From an uncultured Eubacterium sp. (lineage in GTDB: Bacteria; Bacillota; Clostridia; Lachnospirales; Lachnospiraceae): a stretch of 64,000 nucleotides of DNA. The stretch spans positions 1-64,000 of the forward strand of contig CAMUML010000016.1 in assembly GCA_947089855.1 (NCBI GenBank). Direction: 5' to 3'. The translations under genes were made by a program, and so were the position numbers. A model generated the notes under the pieces. It did no database searches, had not been told where the DNA came from, and worked only from the letters and a program-made list of their open reading frames with translations. This document shows positions 175 through 33,366 of this stretch, in pieces (position 1 is the first letter of the stretch; every line of letters starts with the position of its first letter).

Positions 175-306
175 ATACGTTGCACTTATTGTGCCAAGGG
201 TATTTTTATGCATTTTTTCGGGCATACAACATATGGTAGACGGCCATTGGCACATAACTAAATATGCTTTTTTGTCAAGAATAAAGAACGAGAGGTGAAA
301 CGTCAT

Positions 307-3300
307 ATGGAGAAGAACAGAATACGTCCGGTAAATACTGGTAAAGGTATACGTATGAGCTACTCGAGACAAAAAGAGGTTCTGCCGATGCCGAATCTGA
401 TTGAAGTCCAAAAAGACTCCTATCAGTGGTTTTTAAAAGAAGGGCTGAAAGAAGTCTTTGCAGACATCTCTCCTATTTCGGACTATAGCGGGCACCTTAG
501 CTTGGACTTTGTTGATTTTACATTATGCGAAGATGATGTAAAATATACAATTCCGGAATGTAAGGAAAGGGACGCGACTTATGCAGCGCCTTTAAAAGTC
601 AAAGTCAGGCTGTATAATAAAGAAAATGGTGAGATCAACGACCATGAAATTTTCATGGGGGATCTACCGTTGATGACAGAGACTGGTACTTTTGTGATAA
701 ATGGCGCAGAACGTGTTATTGTAAGCCAGTTGGTGCGTTCGCCTGGTATCTACTATGCAATTTCTCATGATAAAGTCGGCAAGACTTTATATTCCTGTAC
801 CGTTATTCCAAACCGTGGTGCATGGCTGGAATACGAGACAGACTCCAATGACGTATTCTATGTCCGTGTGGACAGGACAAGAAAGGTTCCGATTACTGTA
901 CTGATTCGTGCGCTTGGCGTTGGGACGAATCAGGAAATTATAGATTTGTTTGGCGAAGAGCCAAAGATTGTTGCAAGTTTTGGCAAAGACGTTGCTACTA
1001 ATTATGAGCAGGGTCTTTTGGAATTATATAAAAAAATCCGTCCGGGCGAGCCACTGACGGTTGACAGTGCAGAAAGCTTGATCACAGCAATGTTTTTTGA
1101 CCCGCGCAGATACGACCTGGCAAAAGTAGGGAGGTATAAGTTTAATAAAAAGCTTCATTTTAAAAACCGTTTAAAAGGGCAGGTGCTTGCGGAGGCAGTT
1201 ACGTTTCCGGATCCGGAAACAGGGGAAGCAATTGAGCTGCAGCCAGGTACCGAACTGTCCCGGGAAGCGGCGGAGAAAATCCAGAATGCAGCGGTACCTT
1301 ATGTGTGGATACAGGCAGAGGAGCGTAATGTGAAGGTGCTGTCTTCCTTAATGGTAGATTTGCGCGTATGGTGCCCAGATATAGACCCTGAAGAAGCTGG
1401 TATCCGTGAACTGGTGTACTATCCGGCACTGAAGCAGATTTTGGAAGAAAATGCCGGGGCGGATACCGATGAATTAAAAGCAGAAATACGCAAGAATATC
1501 AGCCTACTGGTTCCAAAGCATGTAACAAAGGAAGATATTTTTGCTTCTATTAATTATAATATGCATCTGGAATGGGCCATCGGCAATGCCGATGATATTG
1601 ACCATTTGGGCAACCGGCGTATCCGTGCGGTTGGGGAGCTTTTGCAGAACCAGTACCGGATCGGGCTGTCCAGGCTGGAACGTGTTGTGCGGGAGCGTAT
1701 GACTACACAGGATCTGGAAGGGATCTCTCCGCAGAGCCTGATCAATATCAAGCCGGTAACGGCAGCCGTAAAAGAGTTTTTCGGTTCTTCCCAGTTGTCG
1801 CAGTTTATGGATCAGAATAACCCGCTTGGCGAACTGACGCATAAAAGGCGTTTGTCTGCATTAGGCCCTGGCGGTTTGTCAAGGGACCGTGCTGGATTTG
1901 AAGTCCGCGATGTACATTATTCCCATTATGGGAGGATGTGCCCGATAGAAACTCCTGAAGGACCGAATATTGGTTTGATCAATTCACTGGCTTGTTATGC
2001 GAGGATCAATGAATATGGCTTTGTGGAAGCGCCGTACCGCAGGATTGACAAATCAGATCCAAAAAATCCAAGGGTGACGAATGAAGTTGTATATATGACT
2101 GCGGATGAAGAGGATAATTACCATGTAGCGCAGGCAAATGAAAAATTGGATGCAGAAGGGCATTTTGTACGTAATTCTGTATCTGGCCGGTATCTGGAAG
2201 AGACGCAGGAGTATGATAAAACGATGTTTGATTATATGGATGTCTCTCCGAAAATGGTATTTTCCGTTGCAACGGCGCTGATCCCATTTTTGCAAAATGA
2301 CGATGCAAACCGTGCGCTGATGGGTTCCAACATGCAGCGGCAGGCGGTGCCGCTGTTAACAACGGAAGCGCCGGTAGTAGGTACGGGGATGGAGCCGAAA
2401 GCAGCTGTGGATTCCGGGGTCTGTGTGGTCGCAAAAAAAGCAGGGACAGTGGAAAGCTCTGTTTCCAATGAGATCCGGATACGCAACGACGATGGGACGC
2501 TTAGTACGTACCGCCTTTCAAAATTTACGAGGAGCAACCAGAGCAACTGTGTCAACCAAAGGCCGATTGTCTTTAAAGGGGAGCATGTGGAGGCTGGCGA
2601 AGTGATTGCAGACGGGCCGTCTACATCCCAAGGGGAACTGGCGCTTGGGAAGAACCCTTTGATCGGGTTTATGACTTGGGAAGGGTATAATTATGAAGAC
2701 GCCGTCCTATTAAGCGAGCGTCTGGTGCAGGATGATGTTTATACGTCGATCCATATCGAAGAATATGAAGCGGAAGCACGTGATACAAAGCTTGGGCCGG
2801 AAGAAATCACAAGGGATGTGCCAGGCGTCGGAGATGATGCGTTAAAAGACCTGGATGAACGCGGCATTATCCGTATTGGGGCCGAGGTGCGTGCCGGGGA
2901 CATCCTGGTAGGCAAGGTAACGCCGAAAGGGGAAACGGAGCTGACGGCGGAAGAGCGCCTGCTGCGTGCAATTTTTGGTGAAAAAGCGAGGGAAGTAAGG
3001 GATACTTCTTTAAAAGTGCCGCATGGGGAATACGGCATTGTTGTGGATGCAAAAGTATTTACCAGGGACAACGGCGACGAGCTTTCGCCGGGCGTGAACC
3101 AGGCAGTCCGTATTTATATTGCGCAGAAAAGGAAAATTTCCGTTGGCGATAAAATGGCAGGGCGCCATGGAAATAAGGGTGTTATCTCGCGTGTGCTTCC
3201 TGTAGAGGATATGCCGTTTTTGCCGAATGGGCGTCCGCTGGATATTGTATTAAACCCGTTAGGCGTGCCTTCCCGTATGAATATCGGCCAGGTACTGGAG

Positions 3301-4191
3301 ATCCATTTGAGCCTTGCAGCAAAAGCGCTTGGTTTCAATATCGAAACGCCGGTGTTTGACGGCGCAAAAGAAGTAGATATTCAGGATACGCTGGAACTGG
3401 CGAATGATTATGTAAATATGGAATGGGAAGCATTTGAGGAAAAATATAAGGACGAACTGCTTCCGGAGGTTATGCAGTATTTGTCTGACCATAGGGACCA
3501 CAGGGAGCTGTGGAAAGGTGTACCGATCTCCAGGGATGGCAAAGTAAGGCTGCGCGACGGGCGGACAGGCGAATATTTTGATTCGCCGGTTACGATCGGG
3601 CATATGCATTACCTGAAATTGCACCATTTGGTAGATGATAAGATCCATGCGCGTTCCACTGGGCCGTATTCGCTGGTTACCCAGCAGCCGTTGGGCGGCA
3701 AGGCGCAGTTTGGCGGACAGCGTTTTGGGGAGATGGAAGTATGGGCGTTGGAGGCATATGGTGCATCTTATACGTTGCAGGAAATCCTGACCGTAAAATC
3801 GGATGATGTAGTCGGGCGTGTAAAAACATATGAGGCAATTATTAAAGGGGAGAATATACCAGAGCCAGGGATTCCAGAATCTTTCAAGGTGCTTTTAAAA
3901 GAGCTCCAGTCGCTGTCGTTGGATGTCAGGGTGCTGGATGAGTACCGGAATGAAGTACAGCTAATGGAAACAAGTGAATATGGCAACACAGATTTGAATT
4001 CTATTATTTCCGGCGACAAGGATTTTGCATTTGAAAGCAGTGAATCGTTTAGTAAAATGGGCTTTACCAAGAAAGAATTTGATGCGGAGAGTGAAGAATT
4101 AGTCGATGCGGAAGACGACGAGCCGGAGGAGGATGAGGACGATTCTATATTTGTAGACGACTTTGATGACGACGGTATCGATATGGAATAG
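307..4191 (+). CDS. rpoB: DNA-directed RNA polymerase subunit beta
   Basis: Beta subunit of RNA polymerase; with beta' it forms the catalytic cleft and the rifampicin pocket. The predicted protein has 1294 residues. The ATG at 307 is preferred over the upstream GTG at 295 because a GAGGTGA ribosome binding site lies about 9 bases upstream and the protein then begins [13 protein letters not shown]. The rifampicin region near residues 493-520 has the usual Asp, His and Ser at the classical resistance positions, so it looks drug-sensitive. The C-terminus is a very acidic tail rich in Asp and Glu. rpoC follows after 15 bp, so the two are co-transcribed. Identification is very secure. Confidence 0.99.
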
Positions 4192-4206: not shown

Positions 4207-7200
4207 ATGTCAGAGATAATGAATGAAGAAACCAATCAGCCAATTCAGTTTGATGCGATTCAGATTGGTCTGGCCTCACCGGAAAAAATCAGGGAATGGT
4301 CAAAAGGGGAGGTAAAAAAGCCTGAGACAATTAATTACCGTACATTAAAACCGGAAAAAGACGGGCTGTACTGTGAAAAAATTTTTGGGCCGAGCAAAGA
4401 CTGGGAATGCCATTGTGGGAAATATAAGAAAATCCGCTATAAAGGAGTAGTCTGCGACCGCTGCGGCGTAGAGATTACAAAAGCAAGCGTCCGCAGGGAA
4501 CGTATGGGCCATATTGAACTGGCAGCCCCGGTTTCCCATATCTGGTATTTTAAGGGCATCCCGAGCCGGATGGGTTTAATCCTTGATTTATCGCCAAGGA
4601 CACTGGAAAAAGTACTGTATTTTGCGTCTTATATCGTGCTTGATCCTGGAACTACGAGCATGTCCTATAAACAGGTATTGTCAGAAAATGAATATCAGGA
4701 AGCAAGGGAAAAATATGGCAGTGCATTCCGTGTCGGCATGGGAGCGGAATCAATCCTTGAGCTGCTCCAAGCGATCGACTTGGAGAAAGATTCTGTTTCC
4801 CTAAAAGCTGCGTTAAAAGATGCTACTGGGCAGAAGCGTGCCAGGATCATCAAACGATTGGAAGTAGTGGATGCATTTTACAAATCAGGAAATAAGCCGG
4901 AATGGATGATCATGTCTGTTGTCCCGGTATTGCCGCCGGATTTGCGTCCAATGGTACAGTTGGATGGCGGGCGTTTTGCTACTTCTGACCTGAATGATTT
5001 GTATAGGAGGATTATTAACCGCAACAACCGTTTACGGAGGCTGCTGGAACTGGGGGCGCCGGATATTATTGTGCGTAATGAAAAGCGTATGCTCCAGGAA
5101 GCAGTGGATGCATTGATCGATAACGGAAGACGCGGGCGTCCAGTAACCGGGCCGGGCAACCGGGCCTTAAAGTCCTTGTCTGATATGTTAAAAGGAAAGG
5201 GCGGGCGGTTCCGTCAGAACCTGTTGGGCAAACGTGTGGACTATTCCGGCCGTTCTGTTATTGTCGTAGGGCCTGAGCTGAAGATCTACCAGTGCGGCCT
5301 GCCAAAAGAAATGGCAATTGAGCTGTTTAAGCCATTTGTAATGAAAGAGCTTGTATCGAATGGTACTGCGCATAATATAAAAAGTGCAAAGAAAATGGTA
5401 GAACGGCTGCAAACGGAAGTATGGGATGTATTGGAAGATGTTATTAAAGAACACCCAGTAATGCTAAACCGTGCGCCTACGCTCCACCGTCTTGGTATCC
5501 AGGCATTTGAGCCGATCTTGGTAGAAGGTAAGGCCATAAAGCTGCATCCATTGGTTTGTACAGCCTACAATGCCGATTTTGACGGCGACCAGATGGCAGC
5601 GCATCTTCCATTGTCGCAGGAAGCGCAGGCTGAATGCCGTTTTATGCTTCTGTCCCCGAATAACCTGTTAAAACCGTCAGATGGCGGGCCGGTGGCAGTC
5701 CCTTCACAGGATATGGTGCTTGGGATTTACTATCTGACACAGGAACGTCCGGGTTCGCTTGGAGAAGGCAGTTATTATAAAAATGTAAATGAAGCGATTT
5801 TAGCTTATGAAAACCAGGCATGTACCCTGCATAGCCGCATCCATGTACGTGTCAGCAAAAAAATGCCGGACGGCACGATGAAGACAGGTACGATTGAGTC
5901 CACGCTGGGCCGTTTTATTTTTAATGAAATTATCCCGCAGGATTTGGGTTTTGTAGACCGGAGTGTGCCAGAAAACGAGCTGCTGCTGGAAGTCGATTTC
6001 CATGTGGCGAAAAAGCAGTTAAAGCAAATCCTGGAAAAAGTTATTAATGTGCATGGCGCGACCAAAACAGCAGAAGTGCTGGATGATATAAAATCAATGG
6101 GATATAAATATTCCACCCGGGCAGCGATGACCGTGTCGATTTCCGATATGACCGTGCCGCCGCAAAAGCCGGAATTGATCAATTCTGCCCAGGATACTGT
6201 GGACAGGATTACAAAGCAGTATAAGCGTGGGTTGATTACCGAGGAAGAACGGTATAAGGAAGTTGTAGAGGTATGGAAAGAAACCGACGATGAACTGACG
6301 CATGCCTTGTTGTCCGGGTTGGATAAATACAACAATATTTTTATGATGGCCGATTCTGGTGCACGTGGTTCGGATAAGCAGATCAAACAGCTGGCCGGTA
6401 TGCGTGGGCTGATGGCAGATACGACCGGAAGGACAATCGAGATGCCGATCAAGTCCAATTTCCGTGAAGGATTGGACGTATTGGAATATTTTATGTCCGC
6501 ACACGGTGCAAGGAAAGGGATGTCGGATACGGCGTTGCGTACCGCGGATTCCGGATACCTTACAAGGCGTCTGGTAGACGTATCCCAGGATTTGATCGTA
6601 CGGGAATCCGACTGCAATGCCGGGAAAGACCGCGAAATCCCCGGTATGGTCGTTACGGAATTTGCAGACGGCAAGGAAGAGATTGAGAGCTTGCAGGAAC
6701 GCTTGACGGGGCGGTTTTCTTGTGAAACAGTCTGCGATAAAGACGGCAATGTGCTGGTAGAAGCAAACCATCTGATTACGCCAAGGCGTGCAGCAAAAAT
6801 TATGAGCATCGGTGTGGATGCGGATGGCCAGCCGATTACCAAGTTAAAAATCCGCACGATCTTGACCTGTAGGTCCCATGTCGGTGTCTGCGCAAAATGT
6901 TATGGAACTAATATGGCTACTGGGCAGTCGGTGCAGGTTGGGGAAGCGATCGGTATTATCGCGGCACAGTCTATTGGTGAGCCAGGTACACAGCTTACCA
7001 TGCGTACGTTCCACTCCGGCGGCGTTGCGGGCGATGATATTACACAAGGCCTTCCGCGTGTCGAGGAGCTGTTTGAAGCAAGGAAACCGAAAGGGCTTGC
7101 AATCATTACAGAGTTTGGCGGCGTTGCGACATTAAAGGACACAAAGAAGAAACGTGAGATTATTGTAACAAACCAAGAATCTGGTGAAACTAAAACGTAC

Positions 7201-8643
7201 CTTATCCCATACGGTTCACGTATAAAAGTAATGGACGGGGCAGTATTGGAGGCTGGCGACGAATTGACAGAAGGTTCCGTTAACCCGCATGACATTTTAA
7301 AGATTAAAGGAGTGCGTGCTGTGCAGGACTACCTGTTGCGTGAAGTACAGCGTGTATACCGCCTGCAAGGTGTGGAAATCAATGATAAGCACATTGAAGT
7401 GATCGTGCGCCAGATGTTAAAGAAAATACGGATTGAAAATAATGGGGATTCTGAATTCCTTCCAGGCACATTGGTAGATAACTTGGAATTTGAAGATGTC
7501 AATGACAAGCTGGAGAAGGAAGGGCTGGAACCAGCAGAAGGTGCGCAGGTACTGCTTGGGATTACCAAAGCATCATTGGCTACGAATTCCTTCCTTTCCG
7601 CAGCATCGTTCCAGGAAACAACGAAAGTGCTGACGGAAGCAGCGATTAAGGGCAAGATTGACCCGTTGATCGGTTTAAAAGAAAATGTACTGATTGGAAA
7701 GCTGATACCGGCAGGTACTGGCATGAAACGCTACCGCAGCATTAAGTTGGATTCTGACCTGAATGAAGACGAAGAGCTGTTTGGGGACGAAGATTTCATG
7801 GACTTTGATGAAGGAGCAGGGGCAGTGGAAAGCCGCCAGGAAGCCGAAGACGCAGAAGATGCGGCTGGCATGCACCGGAAAGGCACGTTTAACGGCCTGC
7901 GCACTTATGCGGAAGATGCCCAGGAAGCGCCATACGGCAACGGCCTGCGCACCTATGCAGATCCGGCTCAAGCTGGCTATCCAGGGCGGCAGCACAAGGC
8001 ATTTGCGTCTGAAGTGCAGCCATCCTATTCTGGTGGCTATCAGCCGCAGGATTTTGAGGCGGAAGGCGGAAGCTACGAAAGCGGTGTATATGGCCAAGGG
8101 GCATATGCCAACGGCACCGATTATGCATATGATGAGGATAGCCGGCAGTTATATGCCAATGGGCAGGAGCCGTATGCCGACAGCCAGCAGGATACAGTGT
8201 ATGCGGATGGCCAGGGACTATACGCAGCTGGCCAGGCAGATATGTATGCGGATGGCCAGGGGCCATATGTAAATAGCCAGCAAGGGGTATATGCGGATGG
8301 CCAAGAGCCATATGCAAAAGGCCAGGAAGATGTATACGGCGACGGCCAGGAGCCATATGTTGGCAGCCAGGAATATGCCGACGGCCAGGAGTTATATGCA
8401 GAAGGCCAGGCAGGGGCATATGCGGATGGCCAGGAGCCTTATGAAGAAGGTATGGCAGGGGTATATGGAGCTAGCCAGGAATCCGGATACCCTGACGGCA
8501 GCGGGCAGCAAGTTTATGGCCAGGATGGCGTATATGGATATGAAACAGGGCTGGCGGAAGACGGCCAAATGTATGAAACCGACCTTGACGAAGAAGAGGC
8601 TTATACGCAGCCAGCCAGTGAAGAGTATGCAGTAGTGAAATAA
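4207..8643 (+). CDS. rpoC: RNA polymerase subunit beta' with unusual repetitive C-terminal tail
   Basis: Beta' subunit of RNA polymerase, 1478 residues. A zinc-binding CxC...CxxC cluster lies near residues 68-86, and the absolutely conserved catalytic NADFDGD motif, which binds the active-site magnesium, begins at residue 455. The conserved protein ends near residue 1180 (around [17 protein letters not shown]), which matches the length of about 1200 usual in Firmicutes. The remaining ~300 residues are extra: first an acidic stretch, then two NGLRTYA units, then at residues 1316-1424 at least fourteen Tyr-x-x-Gly/Ser-Gln units such as YADGQ, then an acidic end. The tail is low-complexity and probably disordered. 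It is in frame with no stop and keeps the same codon style as the core. Start ATG follows AGGGAG. Function of the tail is unknown. Confidence 0.98.
8152..8478 (+). repeat. In-frame tandem repeat encoding YxxGQ units in the rpoC tail
   Basis: A degenerate DNA repeat built on TATGCGGATGGCCAG-like 15-mers and longer pairs. It encodes at least fourteen Y-x-x-[G/S]-Q pentapeptides, most often YADGQ, spaced by EP, GP, QD or similar. Units vary mainly at the second and third residue. Such repeats are prone to expansion and contraction, so the length may differ between strains. Confidence 0.9.
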
Positions 8644-8761
8644 GGGCTGATAGTTTCTGGCCGCTGTTTTTGAAAATAATTAGTAATATTAAAGATGGAA
8701 AGAAATGAGATAAGGAAATAAGAATTGTAGTACACTAAAAACAAATATCGGAAATTTCAAA

Positions 8762-8787
8762 ATCCCCCTGCCATATGGCAGGGGGAT
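8762..8787. terminator. Strong perfect hairpin after rpoC
   Basis: An 11-bp perfect stem (ATCCCCCTGCC / GGCAGGGGGAT) with a 4-base ATAT loop, 118 bp after the rpoC stop. On the + strand it lacks a clear U-tract. On the - strand it is followed by a short T-run. It may be a transcription stop, an RNA-processing site or a 3'-stabilising hairpin that separates rpoBC from rpsL. Confidence 0.6.
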
Positions 8788-8897
8788 AAATTAATCTCTG
8801 CCAATATGCATTTCTATTGTATTATTTTCTAAAAAATGGGAAAAATAGCATTGAAACAGTGCAACATGCCGAAATGCATAAAAAAGAAAAATCTTCC

Positions 8898-8926
8898 TTG
8901 ACATTCTTGAAAACTCTATATATAAT
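8898..8926 (+). promoter_or_regulatory. Consensus promoter of the rpsL-rpsG-fusA operon
   Basis: TTGACA at 8898-8903 and TATAAT at 8921-8926 with an optimal 17-bp spacer. It lies about 70 bp upstream of rpsL, so the str operon is transcribed separately from rpoBC. The rest of the 8644-8997 gap is AT-rich and shows no reading frame. Confidence 0.85.
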
Positions 8927-8997
8927 ATTCTAGCGTGTGAAAATATATATCCTATTTTTTATGGCACGCGTGATATAAAATACAGGAGGTGAAAATA

Positions 8998-9420
8998 ATG
9001 CCAACATTTAACCAATTAGTAAGAAAAGGAAGAAAGACGGCTGTCAAGAAGTCTACCGCTCCAGCACTTCAGAAAGGGTTTAATTCCCTGCATAAGAAGG
9101 CAACAGACACATCTTCTCCGCAGAAGCGCGGCGTCTGCACAGCTGTAAAAACAGCAACTCCTAAGAAACCGAACTCAGCTCTTAGAAAAATTGCAAGGGT
9201 ACGCCTTTCCAACGGAATCGAGGTTACCAGCTACATTCCAGGTGAAGGCCATAACCTGCAGGAGCATAGCGTTGTCTTGATCCGCGGCGGCAGGGTAAAG
9301 GATTTACCTGGTACAAGGTACCATATTATCAGGGGTACGCTCGATACGGCAGGTGTTGCGAACAGACGTCAGGCACGTTCAAAATACGGTGCTAAGAGGC
9401 CGAAAGACGCTAAAAAATAA
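8998..9420 (+). CDS. rpsL: 30S ribosomal protein S12
   Basis: S12 sits at the decoding centre of the 30S subunit. The protein has 140 residues and begins [13 protein letters not shown]. The conserved [11 protein letters not shown] and [11 protein letters not shown] motifs carry the lysines that are altered in streptomycin-resistant mutants; both are wild type here. The ATG at 8998 is chosen over the GTG at 8989 because AGGAGGTGA lies just upstream. It is first in the str operon with rpsG and fusA. Confidence 0.99.
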
Positions 9421-31341: not shown

Positions 31342-33366
31342 TCAGTTTCCGAGTACCGTACTGGCAACATATGCTGTGACATCGGAGTCATTTTTTGAAA
31401 ATAATCCGGCATCTACGGCTGCGTTTCTGGCGCATCCTCTGATGAAGGCCAGTGATTCTTCATACTGTGAATTGCTCATGGAAGCGGATTGTGAAATCGG
31501 ATAAATGGTCTTTCCGGACCAGTCATACCGTTCCAAAAAGGTTCCGACAACCATTGGTGCAGTATGCCACCAGATTGGATAACAGAGTACAATTTTATCA
31601 TATTCGGATACGGATGAAAGCGGATCTTTTAATGGTGGCCTTGCATTTGCATCGGCTTCGTCTTTTGCTTCTCCATACGCAACCGTATTATAATCTGTGC
31701 TGTAAGGTGTCTCACGTTCGATCCGGTAAAGCTCCCCGCCTGTCTGGGTGGCAACGGCTTCTGCCTGCTTCTGGCTGGTTCCGCTCCAGGAAAAATAAGC
31801 GACTAAGATTTTATTTGAAGCTGCTGTGCCAGAGCTGGAATTAGTGCCAGTATTGTTATTGGAGCTGGAGTTACTGCCTGCATTGGCATTGGAACCGGAG
31901 TTACTGCCTGCATTGGCATTGGAGCCGGAATTAGCACCTGTACTGACATTGCCCTGTATCCAGTTTTGGATGTGATCTGCGATCACATCATTGTTCAGAT
32001 CCTGGAACATAAAATGGTCGTTTCCGGTAATTCCGATTTTCGGAAGGTCGATGACCGTGCTGTTTCCGCCTCCTGCGTTGTAGTTTTCGGAAAAACTGTA
32101 GCATGCCTGGCGCATCATCTGCCACATCCCGGTTGCCTGGATTGCAGGATCGCCATTGTCAATATAATCTCCGAAGTAGAACGTAACCGGGATCTTCTGC
32201 GTGAGTACTGCCTGAAAGTCTTCACTCTGTGCATCCGGCGCCCCGCCCGGTTCAATGGCTATGATGGCTGCGATATGCTGTGTGTATTTCGCTGCTGTCC
32301 AGCCCGGGCCGCCGCCCTGTGAATGCGTAACTAAAATGGAATTTTTCCCAGTCCTGCTATAAGCCTCATCAATGGTTGCGGCAACCGCTTTTGCCACTGT
32401 TTCATTGTCAAAATCGCTGCCCATGTCGGAAGACATCCCGGTATCAGGGGTCATCTGACGGAAAAACTGGTCAACAGCCTGGTCTGAATTTGGAAACTGT
32501 GAGCCTTCATTCGGGTTCGATTTTCCATTTTCCCATTTTCCGATACGGAACTGCGTATACCATCTTTGTTCCAGAGGTTTTGTGCTGATCGTTCCGCTGA
32601 CAGTGGATGATCCGGCTTCCCCGCGCCTTGGCTGGTCGATCAGGAATACGCTGTGGCCTTTTTTCAGAAACAGGTCTGACCATCCTTCCCTGCCGTCCGG
32701 CGTTGTCATCCATCCCATACGGGACTGGCCGTATCCGTGCAGGAATACCATAGGAAGCCCGGTTTCATTTTCCGGTATCTGATAGAAGACATTGGCGTGG
32801 TCCGCGTGCAGTGTCTGCCCCGCTCCGGTTTCTTCCCACTGGTTTGCCGGGTCAAAGGTTCCGTCTGCAGTGATGACAGTTCCGCCTGCAGAAAAAATCC
32901 CCTGTTCCTTAATCTGAAGGGAATTGCCAGAATTTCCGGAATCTGATGTGCCTGTATCTGGGGTTTTTGAAGTTTCTGGCCGGACATAAACAGTTACCCA
33001 GGTGGTTTTTCTTTGGTACCTTTTTGATGAAAGCGTTACTGTAATATTTGCGGCGCCTGCTTTTCGTGCGGTAATCACGCCTTTTTTGGATACAGACGCT
33101 ACAGCGCTGTTACTGGATTTGAATACTGCGTTCTTTCCTGCGGCTGCTGGTTTCGCAGTGGCTTTTACAGATGCTTTTTCATTTACATTCATGGAATAAG
33201 TTTTTTTTGTCACGTTTCTGTTTCCAATAGAAAGTTTTAATGAACTTACGGCTGTTTTGGCCGCCGCAGATGCTGTCCCGCTGCTGCCTGCAATACCCAG
33301 TATGCAGATGCACAGCGCAAGAAGCAGCGTCATCCATTTTTTGGTGCAGGTTTGTTTTCCTGTCAT
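31342..33366 (-). CDS. Secreted Ig-like / alpha-beta hydrolase / flavodoxin fusion
   Basis: 674-residue exported protein. Signal peptide at residues ~1-35 (KKWMTLLLALCICILGIAG). A BIG2-type Ig-like domain follows at ~38-130 (VFKSSNSAVASVSKKGVITA). Residues ~165-475 are an alpha/beta hydrolase with VFLHGYG and the nucleophile elbow THSQGGG; an acidic and a His residue (GNDHFMF) fit the triad. A Ser/Gly/Asn-rich linker with GSNSGSNANA units spans ~478-515. The C-terminus (~520-674) is a complete flavodoxin (AYFSWSGTSQKQAE, CYPIWWHTAP). ATG after GGGAGGAAACACA. It is divergent from a LysR gene that probably controls it. Combining a lipase/esterase-like domain with an FMN protein outside the cell is unusual. 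Confidence 0.9.
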   Translation of the reverse strand: MTGKQTCTKKWMTLLLALCICILGIAGSSGTASAAAKTAVSSLKLSIGNRNVTKKTYSMNVNEKASVKATAKPAAAGKNAVFKSSNSAVASVSKKGVITARKAGAANITVTLSSKRYQRKTTWVTVYVRPETSKTPDTGTSDSGNSGNSLQIKEQGIFSAGGTVITADGTFDPANQWEETGAGQTLHADHANVFYQIPENETGLPMVFLHGYGQSRMGWMTTPDGREGWSDLFLKKGHSVFLIDQPRRGEAGSSTVSGTISTKPLEQRWYTQFRIGKWENGKSNPNEGSQFPNSDQAVDQFFRQMTPDTGMSSDMGSDFDNETVAKAVAATIDEAYSRTGKNSILVTHSQGGGPGWTAAKYTQHIAAIIAIEPGGAPDAQSEDFQAVLTQKIPVTFYFGDYIDNGDPAIQATGMWQMMRQACYSFSENYNAGGGNSTVIDLPKIGITGNDHFMFQDLNNDVIADHIQNWIQGNVSTGANSGSNANAGSNSGSNANAGSNSSSNNNTGTNSSSGTAASNKILVAYFSWSGTSQKQAEAVATQTGGELYRIERETPYSTDYNTVAYGEAKDEADANARPPLKDPLSSVSEYDKIVLCYPIWWHTAPMVVGTFLERYDWSGKTIYPISQSASMSNSQYEESLAFIRGCARNAAVDAGLFSKNDSDVTAYVASTVLGN

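Follow-up and report, generated by a model that had tools for sequence, protein, structure and literature searches.

The window, the whole stretch of 64,000 nucleotides analysed here, belongs to a single draft genome (101 contigs, 89.7% complete; one strain) of an uncultured Eubacterium sp. of the Lachnospiraceae. Close to its beginning the genes of both large RNA polymerase subunits are found in the usual order rpoB, rpoC, rpsL, rpsG, fusA and tuf, the names after rpoC being read from the proteins. The product of rpoC is the β′ subunit, with the Rpb1 domains PF04997, PF00623, PF04983, PF05000 and PF04998 detected by Pfam in this order and chain 8i23_D as the nearest solved β′ structure (phmmer, E 4.7e-244). 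For the query spanning 6001-8640 the alignment to 8i23_D stops at query residue 584, i.e. RpoC residue 1182, in agreement with the original prediction, which had placed the end of the conserved part near residue 1180; the alignment to some remoter PDB chains reaches query residue 603 (RpoC residue 1201). Beyond the β′ homology about 300 further residues follow in frame, and the uninterrupted frame does extend to residue 1478 as claimed. A usual length of about 1200 residues for Firmicute RpoC, assumed at the same time, fits the stop-to-stop frames of the phylum, most of which measure approximately 1145-1300 residues (138 of 139 phylum genomes gave a match); the next longest frames comprise 1421, 1377 and 1351 residues versus 1483 here. 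The C-terminal tail of RpoB is likewise acidic, with 87 residues past the conserved motif, a net charge of −27 and two tyrosines.

Table 1. Coordinates of rpoB, rpoC and the segments of the RpoC tail in the window.
Feature	Position	Strand	Remarks
rpoB	295..4191	+	upstream of rpoC, same orientation
rpoC, β′ subunit of RNA polymerase, whole frame	4207..8643	+	1478 aa; open frame; Pfam Rpb1 domains 1-5
Junction, first ten residues past PAGTGM (residues 1174-1183)	7726..7755	+	strong conservation within the genus; most named relatives similar
Acidic stretch, no Tyr (residues 1184-1232)	7756..7902	+	first part alignable within the genus
Tyr-rich region, 33 Tyr in 245 residues (residues 1234-1478)	7906..8640	+	
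Repeat array, 16 Tyr-started units (residues 1316-1436)	8152..8514	+	DNA periods 45 and 84 nt
C-terminal end, acidic, Tyr-containing (residues 1437-1478)	8515..8640	+	last residues EEYAVVK

Downstream of rpoC the window harbors a perfect 26-base palindrome (8762-8787) and, ahead of rpsL, a promoter matching the sigma-70 consensus at 12 of 12 positions with 17-base spacing (8898-8926). The promoter scan of 7700-9050 yielded six matches versus 1.9 expected; the one situated within the tail (8105-8133, 9 of 12 positions) is taken as chance, and the others are all located downstream of rpoC. Downstream of tuf, segment 14905-23747 contains integrase-, RepA-like ATPase-, mobilisation-, DNA methyltransferase- and helicase-like frames, as read from the ORFs, and may represent an integrated mobile element that carries a restriction system. 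On the minus strand, frame 31342-33366 joins hydrolase-like and flavodoxin-like parts (names read from the sequence) by an Asn/Gly/Ser repeat, which corresponds to a tandem DNA repeat at 31832-31933 identified by Tandem Repeats Finder.

Past the conserved PAGTGM motif the tail of RpoC comprises residues 1174-1478, thus 305 amino acids, a count that varies by one or two residues depending on how the core end is set. Gly (45), Ala (38), Glu (35), Tyr (34), Asp (30) and Gln (30) dominate its composition, and 65 acidic and 14 basic residues give a net charge of −51. A loose Tyr/Gly region (residues 1234-1315) precedes the array, whose units mostly alternate between seven and eight residues, e.g. 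YADGQEP followed by YAEGQAGA; the heptad consensus is YADGQEP and the two unit types can be written YADGQEP and YAEGQAGV. With one tyrosine per 7.6 residues, no arginine and a single lysine, the array is built around a near-constant Y-x-x-G/S-Q motif present in 14 of the 16 units. The original prediction had counted at least fourteen YxxGQ-type units between residues 1316 and 1424. This number stands when the fourth position may be either Gly or Ser (14 occurrences in the tail, starting at residues 1316 to 1420) and drops to ten for the strict pattern Y..GQ.

Disorder prediction, proposed earlier as a check on the tail, was made by charge-hydropathy, which considers composition only; on this basis the tail is predicted to be disordered, with <R> amounting to 0.17 in the Tyr-rich part versus 0.27 in the acidic stretch. 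A foreign domain or gene fusion was rejected as origin of the extension. No Pfam match is found in 7771-8640 at E ≤ 0.1, and the three matches of the tail to PDB chains at E ≤ 1, the best being a lysozyme entry with E 0.027 and none a polymerase, are taken as chance.

The regularity of the array is far beyond that given by composition. In 20,000 shuffles of the tail Y..GQ occurred at most four times (mean 0.49) versus the ten observed, and the standard deviation of the tyrosine spacing is 2.59, a value as low as this being reached in 0 of 20,000 shuffles (minimum 3.36). A repeat of this kind could nevertheless have grown neutrally, without function, in a little-constrained tail, as the tandem DNA periods and the confinement of the array to one species among the genomes examined would permit. 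Against such neutral growth stands the pattern of substitutions. Compared with their consensus, the 16 units, chosen without motif selection beyond phasing on tyrosine, carry 22 synonymous and 23 nonsynonymous changes, while a synonymous share of 0.25 is expected (p = 0.0005), and most unit variation resides at third codon positions (25 changes versus 10 and 10 at the others). Tyrosine is present in 16 of 16 units and is encoded by both codons (TAT 13, TAC 3), its invariance being partly by construction since the units were phased on it.

When the units are split into their two alternating halves, only one shows the synonymous excess (9 synonymous, 5 nonsynonymous, p = 0.002); the other half lacks it (9 synonymous, 18 nonsynonymous, p = 0.21), as neutral growth would allow, and all these p-values are optimistic because the units share ancestry and are not independent. 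Similarly, the motif-selected heptads alone show 12 synonymous and 6 nonsynonymous changes (p = 0.0003), and the remaining seven units alone 5 and 13 (p = 0.34, no excess). Pairwise comparison of the 14 motif-selected pentads results in pS 0.57 and pN 0.16, a contrast helped by the motif selection. Taken together there is moderate evidence that the peptide encoded by the array is under constraint. Tandem Repeats Finder reports 72-74% matches for the periods of 45 and 84 nt and 65-69% for shorter arrays; as the copies have diverged, they are probably not recent. The notion that the underlying DNA repeat might easily vary in copy number is accordingly disfavoured by matches of 65-74% between copies and many synonymous differences, judged from one genome per species. 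The array, moreover, stays in frame within rpoC, an essential gene. On balance, growth without function appears quite improbable.

Within the genus, the RpoC tails of 12 congeners measure 81-139 residues and contain one to seven tyrosines; the Tyr array is present in 0 of 12. The start of the tail aligns well with that of the window in every one of the 12 congeners. Six of them (L003-L008) also have a similar tail end, e.g. DEAFALLD or EEYALLD, a short similarity which could be partly due to chance. With the start conserved and the end similar in six, the array most likely represents a lineage-specific insertion inside an older acidic tail. The tails of five congeners (L003-L006 and L008) contain a single RAYADG, from which, we suggest, the YADGQ unit may have grown. 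The same conservation of the start and similarity of the end disfavour an artefact of assembly or sequencing (a chimera, for instance, or a frame error), which the dependence on a single draft genome might raise; in addition, the copies are imperfect and rpsL (name read from the protein) follows downstream in the usual order. An artefact is therefore hardly credible.

When the tail alone was used in a protein search of 397 family genomes, of which 359 gave an RpoC core match and 38 did not, its own genome was the sole clear match. Two weak matches with E of about 0.003 are located in frames of 748 and 795 residues away from rpoC, and no other match to the tail is found within its own genome. 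At synonymous sites the RpoC core has diverged strongly from the congeners (pS 0.66-0.82 for 170 codons), hence the array could be old within its lineage.

A near-constant motif, in a tail without any other match in its own genome, would also be expected of a docking array. Each YxxGQ unit would then serve as a short linear motif for a single particular partner, with avidity increased by the repetition; putative partners include ribosomal, termination, RNA-decay or chaperone proteins. Since 0 of 12 congeners possess the array, such an interface would have to be lineage-specific, which counts against docking. A switch by tyrosine phosphorylation so far finds no support, two of five PF13614 matches having been inspected and read as MinD-like and FlhG-like, with the best match outside this pair. 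Docking to a single dedicated partner is thus considered improbable.

To place the tail in its family background, 172 loci were compiled from the 12 congeners, the 80 named loci nearest by sequence (mostly, not all, titled Lachnospiraceae or its genera) and 80 genomes picked from about 150 best of the 359 matched ones, 20 for their long frames and 60 mostly by similarity. All of the 160 distinct tails obtained, none of which was dropped, are net acidic, and in 158 the acidic exceed the basic residues by at least ten. Their median length is 63 residues, their median net charge −23 and their median number of tyrosines two. Tails of the 80 named loci range from 33 to 182 residues and are very variable in sequence. 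The 305 residues and 34 tyrosines of the window compare with a maximum of 182 residues and a median of two tyrosines in the relatives, among which only one distinct tail contains at least ten (L069, the same tail as in L105). The alignment of C-termini asked for earlier thus has a divided outcome: the acidic tail is widely shared, the Tyr array is found, among the genomes examined, only here. Across the phylum, 79 tails drawn from 138 matched genomes have a median length of 26 residues, a net charge of −4 and at most three tyrosines; as long frames were preferred in this sample, the contrast between family and phylum is conservative. Acidity also extends to the RpoB tails of the relatives, with a median of 83 residues and a net charge of −28 (59 of the 80 named loci readable).

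In Bacillus an acidic polypeptide is supplied to the polymerase by the delta subunit (RpoE), whose HARE-HTH domain, PF05066, lies above the cut-off in just three of 200 family genomes, in one of 21 relatives and in 36 of 139 phylum genomes; matches are not specific to delta, some being located in frames of 573-685 residues. In the genome studied here PF05066 matches neither RpoC nor any other sequence. The disordered C-terminal region of delta has a net charge of −47 (PMC7749165), and our proposal is therefore that β′ and β have taken over the acidic role of delta in this family. Congener G002 combines a PF05066 match with an RpoC tail of 118 residues and net charge −34 (L003), so that an acidic tail and a delta-like protein can coexist, which counts against a strict swap. 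This match (G002:C85:10567-10764, in a 172-residue frame) is the sole HARE-HTH, delta-like match among the 12 congeners, and the genome shows 7% contamination. Phylum tails are shorter where delta is present (24 versus 36 residues, p about 1e-5, kinship ignored); the comparison is not leaned on, because relatedness is uncorrected and the sampling is biased, long frames having been preferred in the delta-negative group and three sub-cut-off matches having been counted as delta-negative.

With acidity universal among the 160 distinct tails, sequence and length so variable and delta's domain so rare, acidic charge may be all that matters, the tail then being a delta-like electrostatic brush whose acidic spacer tolerates the YxxGQ units as an expansion devoid of any sticker role. 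Acidic repeats can indeed grow nearly without tyrosine, as in the RpoC tail of L031 with its Asp/Glu repeats (182 residues, net charge −83, two tyrosines). The insertion in the window, however, dilutes the charge density, as seen from the lower <R> of the Tyr-rich part, and every unit retains its tyrosine, in regular spacing. An explanation by charge alone is hence regarded as somewhat unlikely.

Tyrosine enrichment by itself is observed in other polymerase tails. The RpoC tail of L069/L105 contains 24 tyrosines in 136 residues and is unrelated in sequence to the array of the window; the similar tails of L042 and L088 contain seven and eight. The tyrosine spacing of L069 is irregular, 7,856 of 20,000 shuffles being at or below its value. 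In L087 it is the RpoB tail (109 residues, 13 tyrosines) that harbors repeats of the YSDDYHDDYSDDY type, a Tyr/Asp arrangement as in YSDDYHDDY. Tyr-rich polymerase tails therefore appear to have more than one origin, with cases in both large subunits.

Among known systems, the closest formal parallel is the CTD of Rpb1 in RNA polymerase II, which likewise prolongs the largest subunit C-terminally by repeats, namely Tyr-led tandem units with a period of 7-8 residues, and is, as here, predicted to be disordered. The YSPTSPS consensus with its Ser2 and Ser5 sites, on the other hand, is absent, the YADGQEP/YAEGQAGV units of residues 1316-1436 offering no regular Ser/Pro phosphorylation sites, and the tail of the window is acidic. 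Common descent with eukaryotic CTDs is not indicated, given that 0 of 12 congeners contain the array and no polymerase is found among the PDB matches; as the surrounding relatives lack the array, its origin would be independent of the Pol II CTD. Delta resembles the tail as an acidic polypeptide on the polymerase with a similar net charge (−47 versus −51 here, the former from PMC7749165) and differs in that the tail is part of β′, is Tyr-rich and lacks a HARE-HTH domain. By sequence comparison, then, the tail is neither a CTD by descent nor a delta subunit. The acidic RpoC tails of the relatives share its position, a KRYRSxKLDxD-type junction and, in the six congeners, a similar end; length, tyrosine content and the tandem array set the tail of the window apart. 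In FUS-type low-complexity regions Tyr, Gly and Gln are spaced along the chain as in the window's tail, which, unlike them, is acidic, bacterial and fused to a polymerase.

The explanation we put forward, tentatively and as somewhat less than probable, is a disordered tail of multivalent stickers, which would cluster polymerase or recruit partners and thereby resemble the Pol II CTD in its working, though not by descent. It would comprise two layers. The first, the acidic β′ tail common to the relatives, would act electrostatically in the manner of delta's acidic end, keeping nucleic acid from sticking and helping release and recycling as delta would. The second would be the lineage-specific insertion of 16 Tyr-started units of seven or eight residues with Gly, Gln, Asp and Glu in between, whose evenly spaced tyrosines may act as weak multivalent stickers bringing polymerases together or, alternatively, may hold a partner near the transcribing polymerase, while the negative charges would maintain the solubility of the chain and hold it off nucleic acid. 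Since the array has no arginine and one lysine, contacts would be Tyr-Tyr, Tyr-Gly/Gln/Pro or with an Arg-rich partner. The acidity of the array speaks against a sticker, as charge repulsion may oppose self-association.

Tyrosine is reported as a driver of Pol II CTD coacervation (PMC10519987; PMC11502803), and the tyrosine pattern of the tail is of this kind. E. coli RNA polymerase forms clusters with NusA involved (PMC10906006), and a weak and scattered signal of disorder at the C-terminus of RpoC has been described for a few bacteria (PMC5016991). The CTD parallel, the E. coli clusters and these reports of disorder make a sticker tail a reasonable first model. The original interpretation of the tail thus holds in that the tail is real, in frame, regular, predicted to be disordered and longer than that of every relative examined, and it requires amendment in that an acidic tail is not peculiar to this organism. 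From these comparisons we infer both that the array acts as a sticker and that the acidic tail substitutes for delta; that the two combine into an independently evolved, bacterial CTD-like tail, set within an acidic β′ tail replacing the missing delta and clustering polymerase or tethering partners, is an attractive but unproven reading of its role and as a whole unlikely. Within the open-access literature, which was covered in part and leaves most subscription papers outside, neither a Tyr-repeat RpoC tail nor a shift of the delta role was found described.

For the family, acidic RpoC tails in genomes where the domain of delta is rare lead to the testable idea that the job of delta's acidic end has moved to β′. 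For the organism itself, a tail working as a sticker would be a bacterial equivalent of the Pol II CTD with an origin of its own; if this proves true, its simple polymerase would allow one to ask what Tyr-repeat tails are good for.
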